Positions 1,876 through 28,755 of a stretch of 32,831 bases of DNA are shown one piece after another. The position numbers were made by a program, and so were the translations under genes. Within the stretch, counting starts at the first letter, position 1. Every line of letters begins with the position of its first letter. The DNA comes from a virus. The stretch covers positions 1 to 32,831 of IMG/VR virus record IMGVR_UViG_3300025151_000159; one strand, 5' to 3'. The notes under the pieces were generated by a model that ran no database searches, had not been told where the DNA came from, and saw nothing but the letters and a program-made list of their open reading frames with translations.

Positions 1876-4800
1876 TCAAAGCAGGTATCCGAATCCTCTT
1901 GTTGTGAATGGATAAAGTGTGCCACTGCCACTGGTTTGAGAAATCGTGATATCACCGTTGGCGGCAGTAACAGTTAGACCAGTACCAGCGGTAATATTAG
2001 TAACACCTTCGTTAACAATAGTTGCGTTGGTAATTCCTGTTGCCATATCAAGAGACTTGGTGACAGAAATACCAGCGCCTGCTACTGCACTTTCAGTAGC
2101 AGCATAACCCCAAGAAAGATTACCAGAACCATCAGTCTTAAGTGCGTTTCCAGCACTTCCATCGTGAAGTGGCAGTCTGTAAGAGTAGTCTGCAGTTGTA
2201 GCACCGATACTTAAACCAATATAGTGACTATGGTCTTGGTCATAGATGCGGAGAGTGCTGCCAACAGAAACTTCACCTCTAACATCAAGAGCAGTTCCTG
2301 CAGTTACAGTATTAACACCAACATTTCCATTTATATCAATAATGAATGGAGTACTATCGGTTAGTTGGTTACTAACACTTACAATATTACCAGAACCGCT
2401 AGTTGATCTGATGCGAAGTGCTTCATCAGACTCGGTGTAAATATCAATTTTTGCATCTGGGTTTGCAATACCAACACCAAGAGAATTGCCTACAAAAACA
2501 TCAGTTCCATCAAATCTGAAGCTTTCGGAACCACCAAAGTTTCCAGAGCTATTAAACTGAACAGAGTTTGCAGGAGCACCAGGAGAACCAGTTCCTCCAG
2601 TAGCATCAAAGGTGACGCTTGCAATACCTGATGTATTGTATACTGCGGAAATAGTAACTCCATAACCAATGAAGTTAATTTCAGTTGCAACACCAACGAA
2701 AGTCTTATTCAGTCCAAGACCAGTAGAAACACCAACATTTAGTGGTGATGCATCTAAGATGACAGTTCCGACACCAGAAGTTGTGTCATATTCAGTTCTG
2801 ACGGTAGCACCAACACCTGAACGGAAGTCAATGTTCGTTGCAATACCCAAGTATTGTCCAGCGGAAGAAATTCCGACCATTGGATTATTAAGTGATCCAA
2901 GGAAACCAAATGGCTTCCATTCACTATTGGTTGTGTAAATCCAACCAGTGTATCCATTAGTAGCAGGAGTTCCGTTATATACAACATCACCAGGAGTGCC
3001 TGCCAATGTTGGTTGCGATACACCTACAGTAAACTTCCTCGATACTGATCTATCACCTTGTAAGAATAAAGAGTTTGCTTCAATACCTTTGGTAGATGTA
3101 GAAGTCAGTTTGTTGCTGAAGACAACAGGACCATCAAACTCGGAAACAATATCTCCATTAGGACCACCTTCAACTCTTAAGGAGCGTTCAATTGCTACTT
3201 CAGAAGAAGATACTCTATCAAAACCAACACTAGTATCAGAGGTAGGATCTTCGCCAGTTACAGTTGGAATGGGGATATCAAATACTTCTTCTTCACCAGT
3301 GGTTCCACTGACTTTCCTACCACCAACGTAGTAATCACCCTGGTCATTCATACCAGTGTAAAGTACCGCACCACTCTCTTTACGAGTTGCTTGTCCTAAG
3401 AACTCTTCTTGTGGAGTGAGGTTTCTAGTCTGTCTATCAGGGAATGCAGTAGAATAGTTACCAGGACCATATCCAACATATTCAAATGTATGACCTGATG
3501 CACGAATCAAAGAGTTTCTTCTAAACTCAATAGGACGTGGAGCAATCTTCGTTACAACAGCACCGTTTGAGTGTGTTGCTTTTCCTGTTCCGAGTAGTCC
3601 TCTGAATACAGAAACTGGGTTTCCAGTAACAGTACTCTTAATTCTCATAATCTCTTCATCGACCAGTAAGAAGTCACCAATCTGGAAGTTAAAGTTTTCT
3701 ACGTTGGAAATTTGAATGCTTGTTGCATTTGCATTATTAATGACAGCAGAGATAGTTGTCGTAATACCAGCATAGGTTGGAACAAATCTACCACCAAGGT
3801 TTTCATCAGACTTACTAGTATTGCCCGAGTTTGCAATAAAACCAGTCTTGTGTGCGTAGATAGAACCAGCAACTGAATGGTTGCCAGAGATACCAGCATT
3901 AACAACAAACTTTGTTTGACTGACAACTTGAGTAACATAGAAGTTTCTATTATAGAAACTATCTTCAGCACCACTCAGCAATACAGACTTACCAACTTGA
4001 AGATCGTGGTTTTGTACTGTTGTTACTGTTGCAATACCAGTTGATTGGGTGTAACTAATACCAGAGACATCTAATGCTTTACCCGTTAAGCGTGCATTTG
4101 AGTCCGAAGTAAATGTTGGACCAACACCAGATGTTGTTGCATTATTAACAGTGGATGCTGAAGAAACACTAACTTCTTTTGCAGAAGAAATACCAGTGAT
4201 GCGATAGTATCCATTATATCCAGCAAACGTGGTGCTTCCAACTCCATTAATCGACAGAGTTTCACCAACGTTATCAATAATAGTTGTGACACTTACAGTT
4301 GCAGCACTATGGGAAGTTGTGGTTGCAATACCAACAACTGTCATGGTATTACCAATACCATAAGCACTACCACCGTCCATAATCATAATGTCGGAGATAG
4401 TTCCTGCAGCACTTACAGTAACTCTGGCCGTTGCATTTACACCAGTTGAAGAACCTGCGTAACCAACAAGGTTTGCATTATAATAGTATTCGGTATTACC
4501 ACTACCAACACCATATCCAGCACCAGGATTAACAATACTTAAAGTTGCAGCAGGGTTGAGTCCGTGCTCAATATTGGAATACAGAGTATGAACTGTACCA
4601 GCGGCACCAGTAGAGATAATATCAGTAAGAGCAAAACCAACTCGGAAGTCATTCAGAGCTTTATTTAAAGTTTCTCTTGTAACACTGTTTTGTGGTTCAT
4701 CAATTACAACCTGACCAATTGTTGTTGGAAGTGCAAAAGAAGTTGATGCTTTTGGATCTGAAGTTGTATTATCTCTATTGAGTTGTGGATAGAGATTCTG

Positions 4801-7734
4801 GATAGGTTGAGAGAACTTCTCACCAGTAAATGGTGCAACAGTTGGTGAGTTAGAAGTATTAACAATTAACAGATGATAGATACCATCTTTCTCACCAGGA
4901 ACATACTTTTGAATTTCTTCACTCTTATAAACATAGTAAGAGTTAGAATATTGCTTATTCTTAAAGTATGGCAGTGAAGTAGTTCTGCTTGAAGTGTTGT
5001 TAGTAAACGTACCAGGATTAGTTGTCAAAGTAACACTAAACTCTTTAGCACTACCGACACTTACGACATCAAATGTATTGTTGAAACCAGTGTTAGCAGT
5101 ACCATCAAGGTTGTTTGTACTGGTAATGTTCAGAATCTCAACCTGAGAACCAACGTTAAGATCGTGTGGAAGTTCAGTTACAATGGTTGCAGTATTTGAT
5201 GTCCAACTTGCATCAGCAATAATTCTCTGGTTCCTTAACTCAGTAGAGTTAGAAAGAGTTGCGCCAAGTGGGTTGAACTGATATGCAACTTCAGTATTAG
5301 TAGAACCAATAGAAGTATTAGAGTTCTGAATTACAAATCCTTCAAGAGGTGGTTTAGCAGCAGTTGTTGAGTCAGAAGGAATTACATAACGAAGTCTATA
5401 AATGGTATCATCAATATTTCTAGTATCAGGTATTCTCTTGATGTATGTTCTTGGAGTTGCATCACCAATAGAGTTTGTTCCAAGGTCATTAAGAATACTG
5501 TAGATACCGTTTCCAGTTCCTGCAATAGATACATTTACATACCACTGAGAATTGGTTGCATCAAATTGAACTGGGTGCCCAGTGTCACCAGGAATCTTAT
5601 CAGAGACTCTACTGATAACATTAAGAGTGCCACCCTTATTATTAATCGTGAGTGGGTTTAAACCAATAGCATCGTTCAGAGTTTGTCCGACTTTTATTTG
5701 ATCAGAACCAATACCAGAAGTAATGGCAAAGTAAACTTGATTATTGTCAAGTCCATCAGGAACATGACCAGTATCAGAAATAATGCGAACACTTTCACCA
5801 TTTTCAAATGAGTGAGGGCCACTTAAAGTAATGGTGCTGTTGCTGATGCTGTTAATACCAGCGTTTCTACCAACAGTTGCAAGTTTTTCTGAAGTTGTAA
5901 ATGTAGTGTTTGGCATTACAATTAATGCCGAATACTCTGTGGAGATACCAGTAGCACCAGTGATAACAGTATTTAAAGTATCACTGACTTTTGCACCAAT
6001 ACGATAACCACCAACAATACCATCTGGTTTTACTGCTTGGTTAGTCTGTTCATAAAGATACAGACGATTTGTTAAACCCATTGCAGTGGTAAGACCAACA
6101 TCAATTGAGTTGTATTCAATAGTGGTCTCAGCGTTATCAATTGCTTTTGGTGGAAGGATGTGTGAAATATATCCAGCATCATCTCTAAGGAATGCATTCT
6201 TTCTAAAACCACTTGCAACTAACGCTCTGGCACCAAAGTTGGAGTTAGAGTTTGTAATTGACTGGTCACCACCAGACTCTGAAAGGAAGTGAGATGCATA
6301 ACCAATAGCAAAGACCGAAACGACCTGAATATAAGAGTCGTTAGAAGTCTTGAGGTGATAGTTTTCGTACTCTGGTTTGTATCTAGCAAGTCCATCAGTA
6401 TGAAGGTTTTCTACTACGGTAGAGTCTTCATATAAACCAGTAGTAGTATTATATTTTACGAATGCTTTATCATCTTTCTGCAGTCCAATACCCGTAAACT
6501 GGGCAACAACCATGGACTTAAATCCATCTGCCTTGTTACCATCAGCGTGCAGACCACACATACCGTATACAGAACGGAGTGAGCAGTTGAAAATGTAAGG
6601 AGAAGCAGAGGTTACAGTATCAACAGAGATATTGAGAGTAGAACCAGATACTGAAGGGAGTGCATTTGCTGGAGTATTTGAAACCTGATATTCAATTACA
6701 GGTTGAGCACCAGTTGCAAGAACATCAGAGACTACATACTCACCATCATATCCAGCAGAACCAATTCCTTTAATTCTAATAGGAGTATCAACATCAACTC
6801 CAGCAAGTTCACCTGCTAAAGTAACAGTAATAGTAGTACTTGCAGTTATACCATCTCCAGCACGGATACTCGAAATACCAACTTCAGCACCACGGGAACC
6901 TACGATACGATACTCATCAACCTTGGGTTGAATATCAAGTCCTGCAGCAGGATAATCTGGAGAAATGTTTCTTCCAGATGCCTGACCATATACCAGACCA
7001 ACTTTCTGATAATACATATCCAGATCAGTTCTAGTAGTAGAATAGGTCTGGAAGTCATCATCAATACTTACACTATTGACACCATCAGCATACTCAAAAG
7101 TAGTCAGTTTGTGGTGTGAGAAGTTAGGAACAAATCTGTTCTCAGTGTAGTCCTTATAGCACGTCCCATTTGGTGGAGCATCAAGTACAGAGAACTGCCA
7201 GAAGTAGCAACCACCAGTTACACGGAAAACAGCAGATCTTTCGATCTCGTCATTTTCTGGGTTAGGAACATAAAGTGGTCGGATAACAGTCTTACGAAGA
7301 TCCATACCAACGATGGATGTACCTCTGGGAACAATGACACCACCGTAAACACTGTTTAACTTATACAGTTCATTATCAACAGTCGTCAGGTCAAAGTTTG
7401 ACGTAAGATCAAAAGATGGGAGGTTATTTGACGTTAAACCATTACGAAGTCTATAATTATTTGCACCATCTGGTATCCATCCTGGTCGGTTATCCACAAC
7501 GTGATCACCAGGGTACAACACGATAGTTGTTTTGTTAAATCTATCGTTATCTAAACCACTTTGATAGGAAAAACGTGACGCTTCTATCAAAGCTCTTTGA
7601 ATAGTTCTAAAAGGTCTGGTAAGACTATTGCCCTGGTTTTCGACGCTATCAGTAGCATCGATACTGTTAGGATCAACGTAAAGTATAGTACCACGAACCG
7701 ACTTCAGAAAATTATCTAATCTGGAAAGACCCAT
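1876..7734 (-). CDS. Giant tail-fibre or baseplate-associated structural protein (1952 aa)
   Basis: The N-terminus (MGLSRLDNFLKSVRGTILYV, then PFRTIQRALIEASRFSYQ near residue 40) is a recognisable cyanophage virion protein start that leads into a pectate-lyase-like right-handed beta-helix region. At least five copies of a loose module (hydrophobic strand, HDL or similar, VG..V.I.G, F/Y-NG-F/Y.V, then S.KEF.V) lie near residues 300-360, 630-690, 845-910, 1150-1210 and 1232-1290. A stretch with NPGAGYG near residue 1070 resembles the DPG.GY repeats of the protein at 12171-13199. The C-terminal 400 residues are fibre-like (GVGIANPDAKIDI, AGTGLTVT) and end RGFGYLL. A late box and a terminator lie upstream, so it is a separate late transcript. 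The exact virion location is not decidable here. Confidence 0.85.
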   Translation of the reverse strand: MGLSRLDNFLKSVRGTILYVDPNSIDATDSVENQGNSLTRPFRTIQRALIEASRFSYQSGLDNDRFNKTTIVLYPGDHVVDNRPGWIPDGANNYRLRNGLTSNNLPSFDLTSNFDLTTVDNELYKLNSVYGGVIVPRGTSIVGMDLRKTVIRPLYVPNPENDEIERSAVFRVTGGCYFWQFSVLDAPPNGTCYKDYTENRFVPNFSHHKLTTFEYADGVNSVSIDDDFQTYSTTRTDLDMYYQKVGLVYGQASGRNISPDYPAAGLDIQPKVDEYRIVGSRGAEVGISSIRAGDGITASTTITVTLAGELAGVDVDTPIRIKGIGSAGYDGEYVVSDVLATGAQPVIEYQVSNTPANALPSVSGSTLNISVDTVTSASPYIFNCSLRSVYGMCGLHADGNKADGFKSMVVAQFTGIGLQKDDKAFVKYNTTTGLYEDSTVVENLHTDGLARYKPEYENYHLKTSNDSYIQVVSVFAIGYASHFLSESGGDQSITNSNSNFGARALVASGFRKNAFLRDDAGYISHILPPKAIDNAETTIEYNSIDVGLTTAMGLTNRLYLYEQTNQAVKPDGIVGGYRIGAKVSDTLNTVITGATGISTEYSALIVMPNTTFTTSEKLATVGRNAGINSISNSTITLSGPHSFENGESVRIISDTGHVPDGLDNNQVYFAITSGIGSDQIKVGQTLNDAIGLNPLTINNKGGTLNVISRVSDKIPGDTGHPVQFDATNSQWYVNVSIAGTGNGIYSILNDLGTNSIGDATPRTYIKRIPDTRNIDDTIYRLRYVIPSDSTTAAKPPLEGFVIQNSNTSIGSTNTEVAYQFNPLGATLSNSTELRNQRIIADASWTSNTATIVTELPHDLNVGSQVEILNITSTNNLDGTANTGFNNTFDVVSVGSAKEFSVTLTTNPGTFTNNTSSRTTSLPYFKNKQYSNSYYVYKSEEIQKYVPGEKDGIYHLLIVNTSNSPTVAPFTGEKFSQPIQNLYPQLNRDNTTSDPKASTSFALPTTIGQVVIDEPQNSVTRETLNKALNDFRVGFALTDIISTGAAGTVHTLYSNIEHGLNPAATLSIVNPGAGYGVGSGNTEYYYNANLVGYAGSSTGVNATARVTVSAAGTISDIMIMDGGSAYGIGNTMTVVGIATTTSHSAATVSVTTIIDNVGETLSINGVGSTTFAGYNGYYRITGISSAKEVSVSSASTVNNATTSGVGPTFTSDSNARLTGKALDVSGISYTQSTGIATVTTVQNHDLQVGKSVLLSGAEDSFYNRNFYVTQVVSQTKFVVNAGISGNHSVAGSIYAHKTGFIANSGNTSKSDENLGGRFVPTYAGITTTISAVINNANATSIQISNVENFNFQIGDFLLVDEEIMRIKSTVTGNPVSVFRGLLGTGKATHSNGAVVTKIAPRPIEFRRNSLIRASGHTFEYVGYGPGNYSTAFPDRQTRNLTPQEEFLGQATRKESGAVLYTGMNDQGDYYVGGRKVSGTTGEEEVFDIPIPTVTGEDPTSDTSVGFDRVSSSEVAIERSLRVEGGPNGDIVSEFDGPVVFSNKLTSTSTKGIEANSLFLQGDRSVSRKFTVGVSQPTLAGTPGDVVYNGTPATNGYTGWIYTTNSEWKPFGFLGSLNNPMVGISSAGQYLGIATNIDFRSGVGATVRTEYDTTSGVGTVILDASPLNVGVSTGLGLNKTFVGVATEINFIGYGVTISAVYNTSGIASVTFDATGGTGSPGAPANSVQFNSSGNFGGSESFRFDGTDVFVGNSLGVGIANPDAKIDIYTESDEALRIRSTSGSGNIVSVSNQLTDSTPFIIDINGNVGVNTVTAGTALDVRGEVSVGSTLRIYDQDHSHYIGLSIGATTADYSYRLPLHDGSAGNALKTDGSGNLSWGYAATESAVAGAGISVTKSLDMATGITNATIVNEGVTNITAGTGLTVTAANGDITISQTSGSGTLYPFTTRGFGYLL

Positions 7735-7765: not shown

Positions 7766-7773
7766 TATTTATC
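7766..7773 (-). promoter_or_regulatory. Late promoter box GATAAATA for the giant fibre gene
   Basis: The minus strand reads GATAAATA, matching the T4-type late consensus NATAAATA, about 30 bases before the ATG at 7734. It lies just after the terminator of the early cassette, so the giant gene gets its own late transcript. Confidence 0.65.
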
Positions 7774-7776
7774 CAT

Positions 7777-7800
7777 AAAAAAACCCCTGCAAAGCAGGGG
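7777..7800 (-). terminator. Intrinsic terminator ending the oxygenase/Mom-like transcript
   Basis: The minus strand reads CCCCTGC-TTT-GCAGGGG followed by seven T. The stem is 7 bp and GC-rich, with a 3-base loop. It lies 39 bases after the stop codon of the Mom-like gene and isolates the early cassette from the late giant gene. Confidence 0.9.
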
Positions 7801-7838
7801 CAACGGAAGCACAGGGACTTCATTCACACGGAAGGAAT

Positions 7839-8453
7839 TTATATTATACCATAACTTTCTTTATCCCACAAGACCTCAAGTTTCTTGTCAAACACCATCA
7901 AATATCTATGCTTTCTACTTCTGTCTTTCCATTCACCTTCAGCACCTTTCACACTACCTCTTGAGTGTTTGACTCCATCAGAATAGTAAAAGTCTTTCTT
8001 TGGAGCACTCAACCCATAATATTTGAAATTGCACGCACGATAAATGATTCCATGATGATGAGCAGAGTCAGCATAGCTAAGAATAGCACGAACACTTGCA
8101 TCTTTCCTAAACCTCTTGATACAACGACTTACAAACCAGGATGTGATATTGTATTCATCTTTCTGAATGTCTGGGTCAACACAAAGTCGTGAAAGTTCAA
8201 ATAGTCCATCCTGCTGGTCTCTTTCTAATCCAAATGCTCCTTTGGCGATTTCAGGAACAGGGAGCCCAGTAAAAATACAAACGGCAAGACACCCACCAAT
8301 GTTAAGAGGACAGTCCCAGTCTGTGTGTCTAAAAAGTCCATAGTTATAACCTGATTTGAAATCTTTTGATTCATCCTTAAGGTAGTGATAGTTGTAAAGT
8401 AAGTTCTTACAACTATCCTTATCTACCCTATCAATATAAAACTCACTCTTCAC
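7839..8453 (-). CDS. Mom-like protein (GNAT-fold DNA-adenine modification family), candidate
   Basis: 204 residues. The central block ELSRLCVDPD (about residue 90) followed by YADSAHHHGIIYRACNFKYYG-type sequence (about 128-148) matches what I know of the phage Mu Mom family, GNAT-like proteins that convert adenine in phage DNA to a carbamoylmethyl form that resists restriction. The start is GTG at 8453, directly after the TAA of the upstream oxygenase (zero gap), which suggests translational coupling; no strong ribosome site is visible. It is the last gene of the unit, followed by an intrinsic terminator. Alternative: another GNAT acyltransferase with a different substrate. Gene reality is near certain; the family call is moderate. 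Confidence 0.65.
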   Translation of the reverse strand: MKSEFYIDRVDKDSCKNLLYNYHYLKDESKDFKSGYNYGLFRHTDWDCPLNIGGCLAVCIFTGLPVPEIAKGAFGLERDQQDGLFELSRLCVDPDIQKDEYNITSWFVSRCIKRFRKDASVRAILSYADSAHHHGIIYRACNFKYYGLSAPKKDFYYSDGVKHSRGSVKGAEGEWKDRSRKHRYLMVFDKKLEVLWDKESYGII

Positions 8454-9083
8454 TTATTGCCAACGGGGACCATTCACCCATCCTACCAAACTTCTACGAA
8501 CACCACTTCGGACTTTTGTGACTCGGTGTTGTGCCCGTGAATCAAAGATAATCAAGGTGCCTTTCTTCTTTGGTGCATAGTAAGAATCATTTTCGTCACT
8601 CAAAAACTGAAGTTCTCCACCTTCATAATCAGATTCATCAGATAGTTGAAGAGAAAATGAAAGTTTACGGGAGGTCTCATACTGAAGTCCAATGTTTTCA
8701 TTTACATATGCAGCAGAGACTCCACCAAACTCATTTGATAGGGTAGAAACTGACATAGTACATCGAGCACTAATGGAGTCATCACAATGCCAGTTGTAGT
8801 GTTGACCTTCTTTATATTCACTATACTGAAGACAGTCGGCATCAAACCCGTCAATAGCATACTTAAAATTCTTCTTATTGATATAGTCGATATAATAATT
8901 AAGGAAACCAGCAATCCAATGATCTACATTAACCCAAGAGTTATCAGTGTTTCTAATCTTTTTATTTTCTTCAGGAGAAATAATTTTTGACTTTTCTGTT
9001 TCTAGTTTAGAAAATTTTTCTACAATTTCATCAATAATGATATCTGGAAGTTCAGTATCCAGAAATACACTCTGAAATGCCAT
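8454..9083 (-). CDS. 2-oxoglutarate/Fe(II)-dependent oxygenase, prolyl-4-hydroxylase/PiuC type
   Basis: 209 residues. The iron triad is visible: H99-x-D101 (in NWHCDD) and H186 (in QHRVTKV), with R196 of GVRRSLVGW placed to bind 2-oxoglutarate. YEGGELQF (153-160) and GTLIIFDS (175-182) are typical strands of the double-stranded beta-helix fold. Such enzymes hydroxylate or demethylate proteins, nucleic acids or small molecules; the substrate cannot be read here. Cyanophages commonly carry several oxygenases, and this window has a second at 28121. It is coupled to the Mom-like gene (zero gap), so a role in DNA or ribosomal-protein modification is possible but inferred. Confidence 0.85.
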   Translation of the reverse strand: MAFQSVFLDTELPDIIIDEIVEKFSKLETEKSKIISPEENKKIRNTDNSWVNVDHWIAGFLNYYIDYINKKNFKYAIDGFDADCLQYSEYKEGQHYNWHCDDSISARCTMSVSTLSNEFGGVSAAYVNENIGLQYETSRKLSFSLQLSDESDYEGGELQFLSDENDSYYAPKKKGTLIIFDSRAQHRVTKVRSGVRRSLVGWVNGPRWQ

Positions 9084-9091
9084 TTTTTTAA

Positions 9092-9265
9092 TTACTTTTT
9101 CGATTCACTATATTCTAACATATACTCTACAGTATTGGCAACATCTTCCATTGCATCTCTTAACTGTTTTTGACCACCAGAATGTTGCTCCATGTCCATC
9201 TGTGGATCGGTGAGTGTCCATCTCCACTGTTTCATGCACTTGTTGTACCAAAGATTTATGACCAT
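9092..9265 (-). CDS. Small conserved cyanophage protein, unknown function (57 aa)
   Basis: The frame translates MVINLWYNKCMKQWRWTLTD at the start and ends EYMLEYSESKK. AAAGAGG lies 5 bases before the ATG, an excellent ribosome site, and the gene fits tightly between its neighbours (8-base gap to the oxygenase start, 9 to the upstream stop). The N-terminal third is rich in Trp and basic residues and the C-terminal half is acidic and helical. No known domain is recognised. It is co-transcribed with the tRNAs and the oxygenase. Confidence 0.75.
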   Translation of the reverse strand: MVINLWYNKCMKQWRWTLTDPQMDMEQHSGGQKQLRDAMEDVANTVEYMLEYSESKK

Positions 9266-9274
9266 AAAACCTCT

Positions 9275-9544
9275 TTAATCGACGGGCATCATTTCTGGGT
9301 TTTCTAACTCAAGTTCAAACATTAATGGATGGAATTCTTCTTGCACCAGATAAAATGATGCTTTAAATAAATCTTCTTGTTCCCATCGTTTTTCGCCATC
9401 AGCAATATCTATTAGACTTAAATCATAAAGACCATCGTCTGGAAGTTCATCAAAGGTGAATGGAATTCCTTGTATGAAATACATTAGGACTATTTGTCTT
9501 CCTTCGTTATACCAAACGTATCTGGTATCTATCCGGTATTTCAT
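9275..9544 (-). CDS. Hypothetical protein (89 aa) of the early cassette
   Basis: The sequence starts MKYRIDTRYVWYNEGRQIVL and ends NPEMMPVD; it is acidic (pI clearly below 7) with mixed alpha/beta character. It is the first protein gene after the two tRNAs. The ATG is directly preceded by a small dyad (GGGAC-A-GTCCC) and no clear Shine-Dalgarno sequence is visible, so translation may depend on RNA structure. No family is recognised. Confidence 0.7.
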   Translation of the reverse strand: MKYRIDTRYVWYNEGRQIVLMYFIQGIPFTFDELPDDGLYDLSLIDIADGEKRWEQEDLFKASFYLVQEEFHPLMFELELENPEMMPVD

Positions 9545-9577
9545 GGGACTGTCCCGTACCCTAGATTATATAGGGTA
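9544..9577. promoter_or_regulatory. Two nested dyads between tRNA-Leu and the 89-aa gene
   Basis: The first dyad is TACCCTA-N7-TAGGGTA at 9557-9577, a perfect 7-bp inverted repeat whose minus-strand spacer contains TATAAT. The second is GGGAC-T-GTCCC at 9545-9555, ending one base from the start codon. In the transcript they form two consecutive hairpins just after the mature 3' end of tRNA-Leu. They could guide tRNA 3' processing, protect the downstream mRNA or control translation. The TATAAT has no partner -35 at 16-18 bases (that stretch is inside the tRNA), so I do not call a promoter. Confidence 0.5.
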
Positions 9578-9579
9578 AA

Positions 9580-9664
9580 TGCGAGTGGGGGGACTTGAAC
9601 CCCCACGAACTTAATGTTCAACAGATTTTAAGTCTGGTGCGTCTACCGATTCCGCCACACTCGC
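9580..9664 (-). tRNA. tRNA-Leu (anticodon UAA)
   Basis: The acceptor arms GCGAGTG/CACTCGC pair over 7 bp. The long variable arm and D-arm sequence GGCGGAATCGGTAGACGC are typical of leucine tRNAs. The anticodon loop CTTAAAA gives UAA. The T arm GGGGGTTCAAGTCCCCC is perfect. The discriminator is A, and CCA is not encoded. It would read UUA codons, frequent in this AT-rich phage but rarer in higher-GC Synechococcus hosts. Four bases separate it from the upstream tRNA-Ile, so both are processed from one transcript. Confidence 0.92.
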
Positions 9665-9668
9665 AGAG

Positions 9669-9740
9669 TGGGAACACTGGGAATTGAACCCAGACTAAGC
9701 CCTTATAAGGAGCCCGCTCTAACCGTTAAGCTATGCTCCC
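9669..9740 (-). tRNA. tRNA-Ile (anticodon UAU, reads AUA)
   Basis: The acceptor stem GGGAGCA/TGTTCCC pairs with one G-U; the D arm is GCTT...GAGC and the T arm CTGGG/CCCAG. The anticodon stem GGCTC/GGGCT (two wobble pairs) holds the loop CTTATAA, so the anticodon is UAU, which decodes AUA. CCA is not encoded and the discriminator is A. An AUA-reading tRNA fits the AT-rich codon usage of the phage. The isotype rests on the loop alignment and is slightly less certain than the tRNA itself. Confidence 0.85.
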
Positions 9741-9760
9741 AAAAAAACTCTATTCGAGTT
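9741..9760 (-). terminator. Weak hairpin plus T-run before tRNA-Ile
   Basis: The minus strand reads AACTC-GAATA-GAGTT with further T (seven in all), overlapping the TAG stop of the 53-aa gene. The 5-bp AT-containing stem is weak. It could partly attenuate transcription, or mark a 5' processing site, directly ahead of the tRNA pair. Confidence 0.35.
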
Positions 9761-9911
9761 GATAAGTAGGTTGATGAAAACGACAGTATTCGTTGAATGT
9801 GATTTTCATCTCTTTATTAGTCAGGTTGCAGTTTCTTGCTGCTCTCGGAAGGTTCCACTTCGCAGTGAAAAGCATTTCCATAGACTGTCGGGTTTCTGGT
9901 CTCGTGCTCAT
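9750..9911 (-). CDS. Small conserved cyanophage protein, possible helix-turn-helix (53 aa)
   Basis: The frame begins MSTRPETRQSMEMLFTAKWN and ends EYCRFHQPTYQLE. The ATG overlaps the TGA of the preceding gene (ATGA at 9911-9908), so the two are translationally coupled. Residues 20-43 (LPRAARNCNLTNKEMKITF...) have the spacing of a short helix-turn-helix like those of Fis or resolvase proteins: helix, turn at the N-L-T region, second helix. It is basic. I recognise the sequence type as common in cyanomyoviruses but know no function. A DNA- or RNA-binding role is inference. Confidence 0.75.
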   Translation of the reverse strand: MSTRPETRQSMEMLFTAKWNLPRAARNCNLTNKEMKITFNEYCRFHQPTYQLE

Positions 9912-10093
9912 AGTGGATTTGTATATGCAACTGTGTCTTCGTCACAAGTATCCCGAACGTATTCTAGGACACGCATAAACTCATCGATACTGTCACACTG
10001 CACAAGTTTCTCATCACCCTCACTGCCAAGCAACAGGACAGTCTTGCGGAGGGGATCAACGACACAACGTGTCAGGTACTCTTCTTCTTGCAT
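9908..10093 (-). CDS. Small acidic protein, first gene of the early cassette (61 aa)
   Basis: Starts MQEEEYLTRCVVDPLRKTVL and ends DTCDEDTVAYTNPL. It is acidic, with a beta-strand-like first half and a helical second half (SIDEFMRVLEYVRD). It lies 17 bases after the predicted start point of a perfect sigma-70 promoter and overlaps the next start codon by four bases. The plus-strand reading across this region has no supporting start site. No family is recognised. Confidence 0.75.
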   Translation of the reverse strand: MQEEEYLTRCVVDPLRKTVLLLGSEGDEKLVQCDSIDEFMRVLEYVRDTCDEDTVAYTNPL

Positions 10094-10116
10094 CGTGCTT
10101 TGTTTGTTACCTGCTT

Positions 10117-10145
10117 ATTATAGGGCATCCAGGGGGTGGTGTCAA
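10117..10145 (-). promoter_or_regulatory. Perfect sigma-70 promoter TTGACA-N17-TATAAT
   Basis: The minus strand has TTGACA at 10145-10140 and TATAAT at 10122-10117, with exactly 17 bases between. Both hexamers are full consensus. The TGA inside TTGACA is the stop codon of the virion gene at 10142-10789. The transcript should start near 10110 and cover the two small genes, both tRNAs, two more small genes, the oxygenase and the Mom-like gene, to the terminator at 7777-7800. Confidence 0.9.
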
Positions 10146-27531: not shown

Positions 27532-28124
27532 TTCTCTCCTATAACTACTTGTTTAAGAATTTTTTTATAACGAAATACATCGGTATTTAGAAAGGGACTA
27601 TACTTGCTCATTTTCATGGATGTCAACTCCCACACAGGGTCTTTTAGTTTTTTATCAAACTTTGACTTATATCCAAGAATACGGTCAAGTATAATCATGG
27701 TTTCCAAAGATATTTTACCTTGAAGATGCATTTTTAATACTTCAGGATGACGAGACCCCTCAATACGAAATAAAGTATCAAAGTCAGTATCACTGAAAAG
27801 TTCAACTTCCTCCCTAAAAAGATAAGAGAGTGACTGAATACGCTTCTGCCACTCTCTATAGTTTCCTTCGCCATTTCTGATAATTTCACCAATCCACAAA
27901 GTTTGTGGATCACTACAACTCACGAAGTTTGAAACAAAGAAGTGTTCAACCTCTTTTTCTGACTTTTGACGTGCAACTTTTTCAAACCAGAAACGGTCTT
28001 TTCTCTTGTAAAATGACTGTACGCTTGCTCTGGTCTTTTTGTTGTACTTATGGTAGTCGTAGTTGCTTTTGGTGAAGTGGTTCTTCAGAGCAAGATAGGT
28101 TTTATAAGCGTCGTAGGGCATCAT
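27528..28124 (-). CDS. 59: Helicase loader gp59 (198 aa)
   Basis: Resembles T4 gp59 (217 aa) in size and pattern: a basic N-terminal domain (MMPYDAYKTYLALKNHF, SVQSFYKRKDRFWFEKVARQ), then FFVSNFVSCSDPQTLWIGEI, LSYLFREEVELF, HPEVLKMHLQGKISLETMII, LDRILGYKSKFD and a lysine-rich end. T4 counterparts are KYFFQKL, FISNLVANQDAWIGD and LLQSNIISFETFILLDSFL. gp59 loads the gp41 helicase on gp32-coated forks. Coupled by ATGA overlaps on both sides; neighbours gp33 and gp32 confirm the call. Confidence 0.88.
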   Translation of the reverse strand: MMPYDAYKTYLALKNHFTKSNYDYHKYNKKTRASVQSFYKRKDRFWFEKVARQKSEKEVEHFFVSNFVSCSDPQTLWIGEIIRNGEGNYREWQKRIQSLSYLFREEVELFSDTDFDTLFRIEGSRHPEVLKMHLQGKISLETMIILDRILGYKSKFDKKLKDPVWELTSMKMSKYSPFLNTDVFRYKKILKQVVIGEK

Positions 28125-28699
28125 CGGATATTGATATTGAAAGCAAAAGTAATACGCTCTTTATTACTTTTTTGTTCTTCAACACAATGAAGCGTATTAC
28201 TAGGGAAAATGATCATTGTACCATTATCACCATCATACTCTTTTTCCAGTTCTGGGAAAATTGTAGGGTGTTTGTGATTTTTATGATAGATCACGCCAGA
28301 GATATGCCCTGCATGTCCATGAGGAGGGTTCTTATTACCTTTATATGCAAAGTTTGCCCAAATATCATATCCGTCAAAATGTCCATCCCATTTCCGAAGA
28401 AAGTAGTCTCTATGATTACGACCAAAAATAGAAGCACACGCTCTAACGGTATATGCTAACCAATATGAGTTTTCAACTAGTTGACCAGGAATACCACATT
28501 GATAGGAATTATATTCATTTCCCCTATCTGGGTCATATCCAATATTTTCATGCGCTTTCAAAAAACCAAGCGGATGATTTTTAATCTTTTTACATTCTCT
28601 TTCCCATACATTCAGTTCATCAACAATTTGCTTGGGAAGTTCACAAACAAATATTGGTGCTCTATCTGTAAGTTGATCAATCTTTGCTTTTATTGTCAT
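28121..28699 (-). CDS. Putative 2-oxoglutarate/Fe(II) oxygenase, HxH type (192 aa)
   Basis: The C-terminal half holds NPPHGHAGHISGVIYHK (H127, H129, then SGVIY), GTMIIFPSNTLHCVEE (H171) and R182 of ERITFAFNIN. This is the pattern of a phage/bacterial oxygenase family whose members read H.H...lSGvyY...fPS.l.H.v...RiS..fN. The first iron-ligand motif is HGH rather than HxD/E, so the ligand set is uncertain. The substrate is unknown. I prefer the ATG at 28699; a GTG 15 codons earlier is also possible. The gene overlaps gp59 by four bases and follows gp33. Confidence 0.72.
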   Translation of the reverse strand: MTIKAKIDQLTDRAPIFVCELPKQIVDELNVWERECKKIKNHPLGFLKAHENIGYDPDRGNEYNSYQCGIPGQLVENSYWLAYTVRACASIFGRNHRDYFLRKWDGHFDGYDIWANFAYKGNKNPPHGHAGHISGVIYHKNHKHPTIFPELEKEYDGDNGTMIIFPSNTLHCVEEQKSNKERITFAFNINIR

Positions 28700-28755
28700 G
28701 ATAAAAAGGTAATCGCGTGAAAATTTTGCCGGGTTTTTTTCCACCCAAAAATGGA

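Follow-up and report, generated by a model that had tools for sequence, protein, structure and literature searches.

A probable early-type Mom adenine-modification gene in a conserved cassette ahead of the tail-fibre gene of an uncultured cyanomyovirus

Introduction

Mom shields the DNA of phage Mu from restriction enzymes of many kinds (PMC6483171). In this study, we sought to determine what a gene for a Mom-like protein contributes to an uncultured virus in which it directly follows a gene for a 2-oxoglutarate (2OG)-Fe(II) oxygenase. The gene occupies positions 7839-8453 of IMG/VR record IMGVR_UViG_3300025151_000159, a linear virus record analysed over its full 32.8 kb (hereafter the window), and belongs to a cassette of small genes between two blocks of virion genes. 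A previous interpretation of the letters alone, which we call the sequence-only reading, proposed that oxygenase and Mom-like protein together form a two-step system of DNA modification or anti-restriction. The window carries the T4-like genes gp32, gp59, PhoH and Thy1, and the annotated phages most closely related to it are myoviruses of Synechococcus and Prochlorococcus; it is a fragment of a T4-like cyanomyovirus, a phage not yet cultured and akin to those that kill marine cyanobacteria. We consider it probable that the cassette brings an early-type Mom gene for adenine modification, and hence anti-restriction, into a hot-spot of cyanomyovirus variation, with the oxygenase as optional cargo.

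Identity of the Mom-family protein

The product of 7839-8453 matches the Pfam Mom model (PF25680) over residues 4-191 with 73.2 bits against a cut-off of 27.1. Mu Mom itself matches the same model, and PHROG assigns the window protein to family 1384, 'Mom-like DNA modification protein'. When an AlphaFold model of the protein (pLDDT 72.8) was compared with solved structures, the best match in the PDB was phage Mu Mom S124A (8bv8; E 4e-7, chains at ranks 1-2), which ranked ahead of all other acetyltransferases. Among viral matches of the model, the second is a protein annotated as Mom in Salmonella phage FSL SP-031. A sequence search of the PDB returned no Mom match; the fold search alone found it.

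An alignment of 13 sequences, among them the Mom proteins of Mu and of seven further phages, contains 15 invariant columns. These include, in Mu numbering, His58-Tyr59, Glu108-Leu-x-Arg111, Asn121, Ser124, Ser146, Asp149 and Tyr159, all of which are kept in the window protein; Ser105 is the counterpart of Mu Ser124, and His23-Tyr24, Glu86-Leu-x-Arg89, Ser126-x-Ala-Asp129 and Tyr138 are further counterparts. The Mu S124A mutant is described as inactive in the 8bv8 entry. A pairwise alignment of the window and Mu proteins without intermediates misplaces Ser124, and the multi-family alignment is the one relied on here. About 80 residues are invariant across 38 close Mom sequences. Judged by sequence, modelled fold and conserved residues, the protein is firmly supported as a true member of the Mom family, and the profile search, with which fold and key residues agree, upholds the identification made in the sequence-only reading.

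While family, best solved fold and conserved residues are common to the window protein and Mu Mom, the two are about 23% identical (40/175 aligned positions) and their settings differ: the window phage is a virulent T4-like phage, its Mom gene lies in an early-type operon, and there is no com gene. Mu mom is expressed late and depends on the translational activator Com. Mom-like genes of the same family in Bacillus phage Riggi, Enterococcus phage phiSHEF2 and Proteus and Salmonella phages (PHROG 1384) are mostly stand-alone in isolates, and the Mom-like genes of other phages are distant from the window gene, at about 32% identity or less.

Mom has a GNAT fold, and the protein could be a GNAT that acts on a host protein, a tRNA or a metabolite instead of DNA. 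The fold is versatile, the model has matches to many GNATs (E 1e-5 to 1e-3), and two tRNA genes lie in the same operon. However, no solved structure matches better than Mu Mom, the Pfam Mom score is far over its cut-off, and the Mom-family residues, Ser124 among them, are invariant, which makes a substrate other than DNA unlikely in our view.

Organization and conservation of the cassette

The cassette spans 10145-7776 on the minus strand and holds six small open reading frames (ORFs; 61, 53, 89, 57, 209 and 204 residues) and two tRNA genes, tRNA-Ile(tat) and tRNA-Leu(taa), as first described (Table 1). The -35 hexamer of its promoter overlaps the TGA stop codon (10142-10144) of the preceding virion-block gene, and the cassette terminator is immediately followed by the late box (7772-7766) of the fibre gene. 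The conservation of these signals was scored on 94 distinct related loci against 1,880 shuffles, with the promoter sought up to 120 nucleotides (nt) upstream of the first ORF and the late box up to 100 nt before the fibre gene. A promoter with 11-12 of 12 matches was found in 69/94 loci, while 11 matches were reached in only 2/1,880 shuffles. The fibre gene is preceded by a late box in 74/94 loci as against 4 expected. Retention of promoter and late box across the related loci, beyond chance, marks the cassette as a genuine and conserved unit. The perfect sigma-70 promoter, the strong terminator and the separate early-type transcription unit between virion blocks, all proposed from the window alone, are borne out, 'early' being read from the promoter type. 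Over the whole window, however, the late-box motif occurs 9 times as against 8.7 by chance, and for the genes that adjoin the cassette upstream (10.1-20.9 kb) the nearest late box is at 21.0 kb; the claim of late boxes on both sides is borne out only in part.

At the fibre site, the usual order in related loci is 61-residue ORF, 53-residue ORF, tRNA-Leu, 89-residue ORF, tRNA-Thr, 57-residue ORF, Mom and fibre gene, with a median gap of 11 nt between the 57-residue ORF and Mom. The 53-residue protein, the putative helix-turn-helix regulator of the sequence-only reading, has no Pfam match and falls only in PHROG families of unknown function. A cyanomyovirus variable region 'near gp5 with tRNAs' has been described (Sullivan et al. 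2010, PMC3037559), and the cassette appears to occupy this hot-spot. The small conserved ORFs and tRNA-Leu are common to the window and the cultured phages Bellamy and S-SM2, and most are also found in SynMITS9220M01, but the cargo described for the hot-spot does not include Mom (PMC3037559). A literature search, in which coverage of subscription journals was thin, found no report of Mom from cyanophages; the location of the hot-spot is already known, and Mom as its cargo seems unreported.

Distribution of Mom in related phages

A protein scan of IMG/VR with the window Mom returned 209 related stretches, 80 of which were kept (identity 69-91%). Here and below, locus counts describe the nearest relatives returned per scan, some of them near-copies, and are not population frequencies. 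Mom lies upstream of the same fibre gene in 62/80 stretches and beside gp32 in other T4-like contigs in 15/80, a second site; in 2/80 it has only the 57-residue ORF alongside, and in 1/80 the context is unclear. On a tree of 124 distinct fibre sequences, Mom accompanies 89 and is missing from 35, which takes at least 15 changes. With these changes and the second site beside gp32, the patchy distribution of Mom is what one would expect if selection on the gene fluctuates and depends on the host.

None of the four cultured cyanophages examined has Mom at the fibre site: in Bellamy, S-SM2 and SynMITS9220M01 the cassette is present but lacks Mom, and S-SCSM1 has a different oxygenase and CpeT there. 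The clade of the window Mom (66-92% identity) was met only in uncultured contigs and one metagenome-assembled genome (MAG). An exact-peptide scan of genomes found no host or prophage source of Mom. An alignment scan of genomes returned one 27-residue match and a 66% identical copy on a contig (L265) assigned to a Gammaproteobacteria MAG, where the cassette, fibre and gp32 genes are all missing from the vicinity. Among annotated phages, Roseobacter phage CRP-212 has the closest Mom, at 53% identity. In this phage (L086:6001-6927) Mom and MazG domains share one open frame, and the deposited gene begins within the Mom part, such that the Mom domain was partly missed in annotation.

Beside gp32, the overlap of Mom with a GIY-YIG-like/NUMOD3 gene (L073:5364-6588 and L080:5340-6591) suggests that Mom travels with homing endonucleases. 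Mom might then mainly guard against such enzymes, or ride with mobile endonucleases, rather than counter host restriction. Genes of HNH or GIY-YIG type occur in 22/88 Mom-positive and 0/19 Mom-negative cassettes (p 0.011), the NUMOD3-bearing gene at the gp32 site runs a few bases past the Mom start, and other phages have Mom-like domains fused to endonucleases (PHROG 559/3339, BFVD matches, PMC7824862), the jumbo-phage fusions being of the same family as the window Mom. Yet 66/88 Mom-positive cassettes, including that of the window, have no endonuclease, Mom-negative cassettes are smaller overall, which alone is enough to lower their endonuclease counts, and the tree-corrected association test is without power. 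We judge this explanation improbable.

Relation of the oxygenase to Mom

The zero gap between oxygenase and Mom that had been pointed out is present, with the TAA stop codon of the oxygenase directly abutting the GTG start codon of Mom. In a two-step hypermodification of DNA, Mom would acylate, and the oxygenase would act on the base or the added group, either preparing it or oxidising it further. In addition to the zero-gap pair of the window, the same gene order is found in L183, the only other locus with a relative of this oxygenase directly upstream of Mom (54% identity, 38-nt gap). The co-occurrence expected of such a pair fails, however: a relative of the window oxygenase lies near Mom in 1/52, 1/53 and 1/45 Mom-positive loci in three scans, two distinct contigs overall. 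In L180 and L198, sisters of L183 with near-identical fibres, Mom is present and the window-type oxygenase is absent; the oxygenase was gained or lost while Mom stayed. When oxygenases of any family are counted, they occur in 12/88 Mom-positive as against 1/19 Mom-negative cassettes (p 0.46), and tree-corrected pairs give no oxygenase-Mom association, oxygenase presence amounting to 13 changes on the tree. The modelled fold of the oxygenase, which resembles prolyl-4-hydroxylases, also argues against a two-step pathway, and, to our knowledge, Mu Mom needs no oxygenase partner, which we likewise count against the two-step idea. Moreover, 2OG oxygenases are numerous in cyanomyoviruses anyway, being found in 14/16 genomes (PMC3037559).

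One pattern points the other way. In the slot between the 57-residue ORF and Mom, 8/10 ORFs of at least 120 residues are 2OG oxygenases of several sub-families, as against 10/38 of the larger ORFs at other positions in the cassettes (Fisher p 0.003 in a post hoc, unplanned contrast). This excess is a lead for the two-step idea, not support for it, and that idea is, on balance, very unlikely. Coupling of oxygenase and Mom in two steps was rejected on the co-occurrence counts and the tree-corrected test. A broader version, in which oxygenases are repeatedly inserted before Mom since they act on Mom-modified adenine, or on the product or cofactor of Mom, and so diversify a two-step hypermodification in cyanophages, is a long shot. 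The loci in which 2OG oxygenases of several sub-families recur in the slot are L006, L011, L054, L183, L198, L217 and L251.

What, then, is the oxygenase? It matches PF13640 with 58.7 bits (cut-off 27), and His99, Asp101, His186 and Arg196, which correspond to the HxD...H iron ligands and the 2OG-binding Arg, are invariant. The best fold matches of its model (pLDDT 80) are prolyl-4-hydroxylases, including the Pseudomonas putida (P. putida) enzyme that has also been solved with EF-Tu, as well as PHD enzymes and a chlorella-virus prolyl hydroxylase. Fold, iron ligands and 2OG-binding Arg are shared with the P4H/PHD-type enzymes 4j25, PHD2 and PiuC, at about 15% identity. The 50 best PDB matches listed are prolyl hydroxylases, PiuC-type or uncharacterised oxygenases, with no nucleic-acid oxygenase of the AlkB, TET or JBP type among them. 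The model thus indicates that the oxygenase is most likely a protein hydroxylase of prolyl-4-hydroxylase type, and its distribution makes it look like optional, separately acquired cargo.

Independently of Mom, the oxygenase could hydroxylate neighbouring virion proteins (fibre or tail) or host EF-Tu. In support of this, its closest folds include the EF-Tu-associated P. putida structure, its closest homologue in an isolate, Bellamy, lies four genes from a tail-fibre gene, and the HxD...H and Arg residues are invariant. The substrate, however, is not readable from sequence, and because the gene is in few cassettes, no fibre protein of the lineage depends on it. We hold this role to be a real possibility, if somewhat short of an even one. 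The window contains a second 2OG oxygenase (28121-28744), which lies near the gp59 gene and belongs to another sub-family (PF13759).

Proposed function of the cassette

In the model that we favour, adenine modification by Mom, the host-like sigma-70 promoter would allow host RNA polymerase to transcribe the cassette as one early-type operon soon after infection, and the terminator would close the operon just ahead of the late promoter. Insertion of the oxygenase presumably put a stop codon against the Mom start; the pair may be translated together, Mom possibly by re-initiation after the oxygenase stop. By family, Mom should bind acyl-CoA on its GNAT fold and would attach a small group of carbamoylmethyl type to the N6 of adenine in phage DNA. 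DNA modified in this manner would escape cutting by many host restriction enzymes, and Mom made early could act on it before and during replication. Mu-type caution over mom may be unneeded in a virulent phage.

Several observations weigh against this model. Residues 149-179 of the Mom model are poorly predicted and unreliable, and stand-alone GNAT proteins can switch substrate. Upstream of the window Mom there is no Com-like zinc-finger activator: the genes there encode the oxygenase and the 57-residue PHROG 2818 protein, which lacks a cysteine cluster. Finally, Mom-positive relatives show no relaxed avoidance of palindromes compared with Mom-negative ones, and hence no genomic footprint of protection was seen. 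Palindromes are avoided in both groups (median observed/expected 0.78 in Mom-positive and 0.86 in Mom-negative loci); CCGG is at 0.65 in Mom-positive and 1.00 in Mom-negative loci (p 0.006), but non-palindromes differ as much. Among the fibre-site loci, palindromic tetramers are avoided, and the seeming avoidance of CCGG and GGCC in Mom-positive but not Mom-negative loci is within noise.

If the genes work as proposed, many uncultured relatives would have DNA with modified adenines, whereas the gene is missing from the isolates examined at this site. This would have consequences for host range and for the choice of phages that come into culture, and closely related cassettes with and without Mom offer a ready comparison.

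Features of the locus

Table 1. Genes and signals of the cassette and its flanks.
Feature	Position	Strand	Details
Sigma-70 type promoter	10117..10145	-	TTGACA-17-TATAAT, 12/12 matches; early type
61-aa protein, DUF7294 (PF23966)	9908..10093	-	First cassette gene; 68.9 bits, cut-off 27; conserved in loci
53-aa protein	9750..9911	-	PHROG 1308/1920; function unknown
tRNA-Ile (tat)	9668..9740	-	tRNA call, also Rfam
tRNA-Leu (taa)	9579..9665	-	tRNA call, also Rfam; kept in most relatives
89-aa protein	9275..9544	-	PHROG 4134; conserved cassette member
57-aa protein	9092..9265	-	PHROG 2818; normally adjoins Mom on upstream side
2OG-Fe(II) oxygenase (PF13640)	8454..9083	-	209 aa; prolyl-4-hydroxylase-like fold; between 57-aa ORF and Mom
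Mom-family protein (PF25680)	7839..8453	-	204 aa; GTG start; GNAT fold
Intrinsic terminator	7776..7801	-	8-bp stem 7801-7783; T-tract to 7776
Late box of downstream fibre gene	7766..7772	-	ATAAATA, 32 nt ahead of fibre ATG
1,952-aa protein matching isolate tail fibres	1876..7734	-	Downstream flank
Two paralogues, 215 and 266 aa	10142..11589	-	Upstream flank; PHROG 28536/17490; function unknown

The two paralogues that flank the cassette upstream have their C-terminal half in common. In one related locus (L214:4698-5873), the ORF that follows Mom resembles, by eye, a flavin-dependent tryptophan halogenase.

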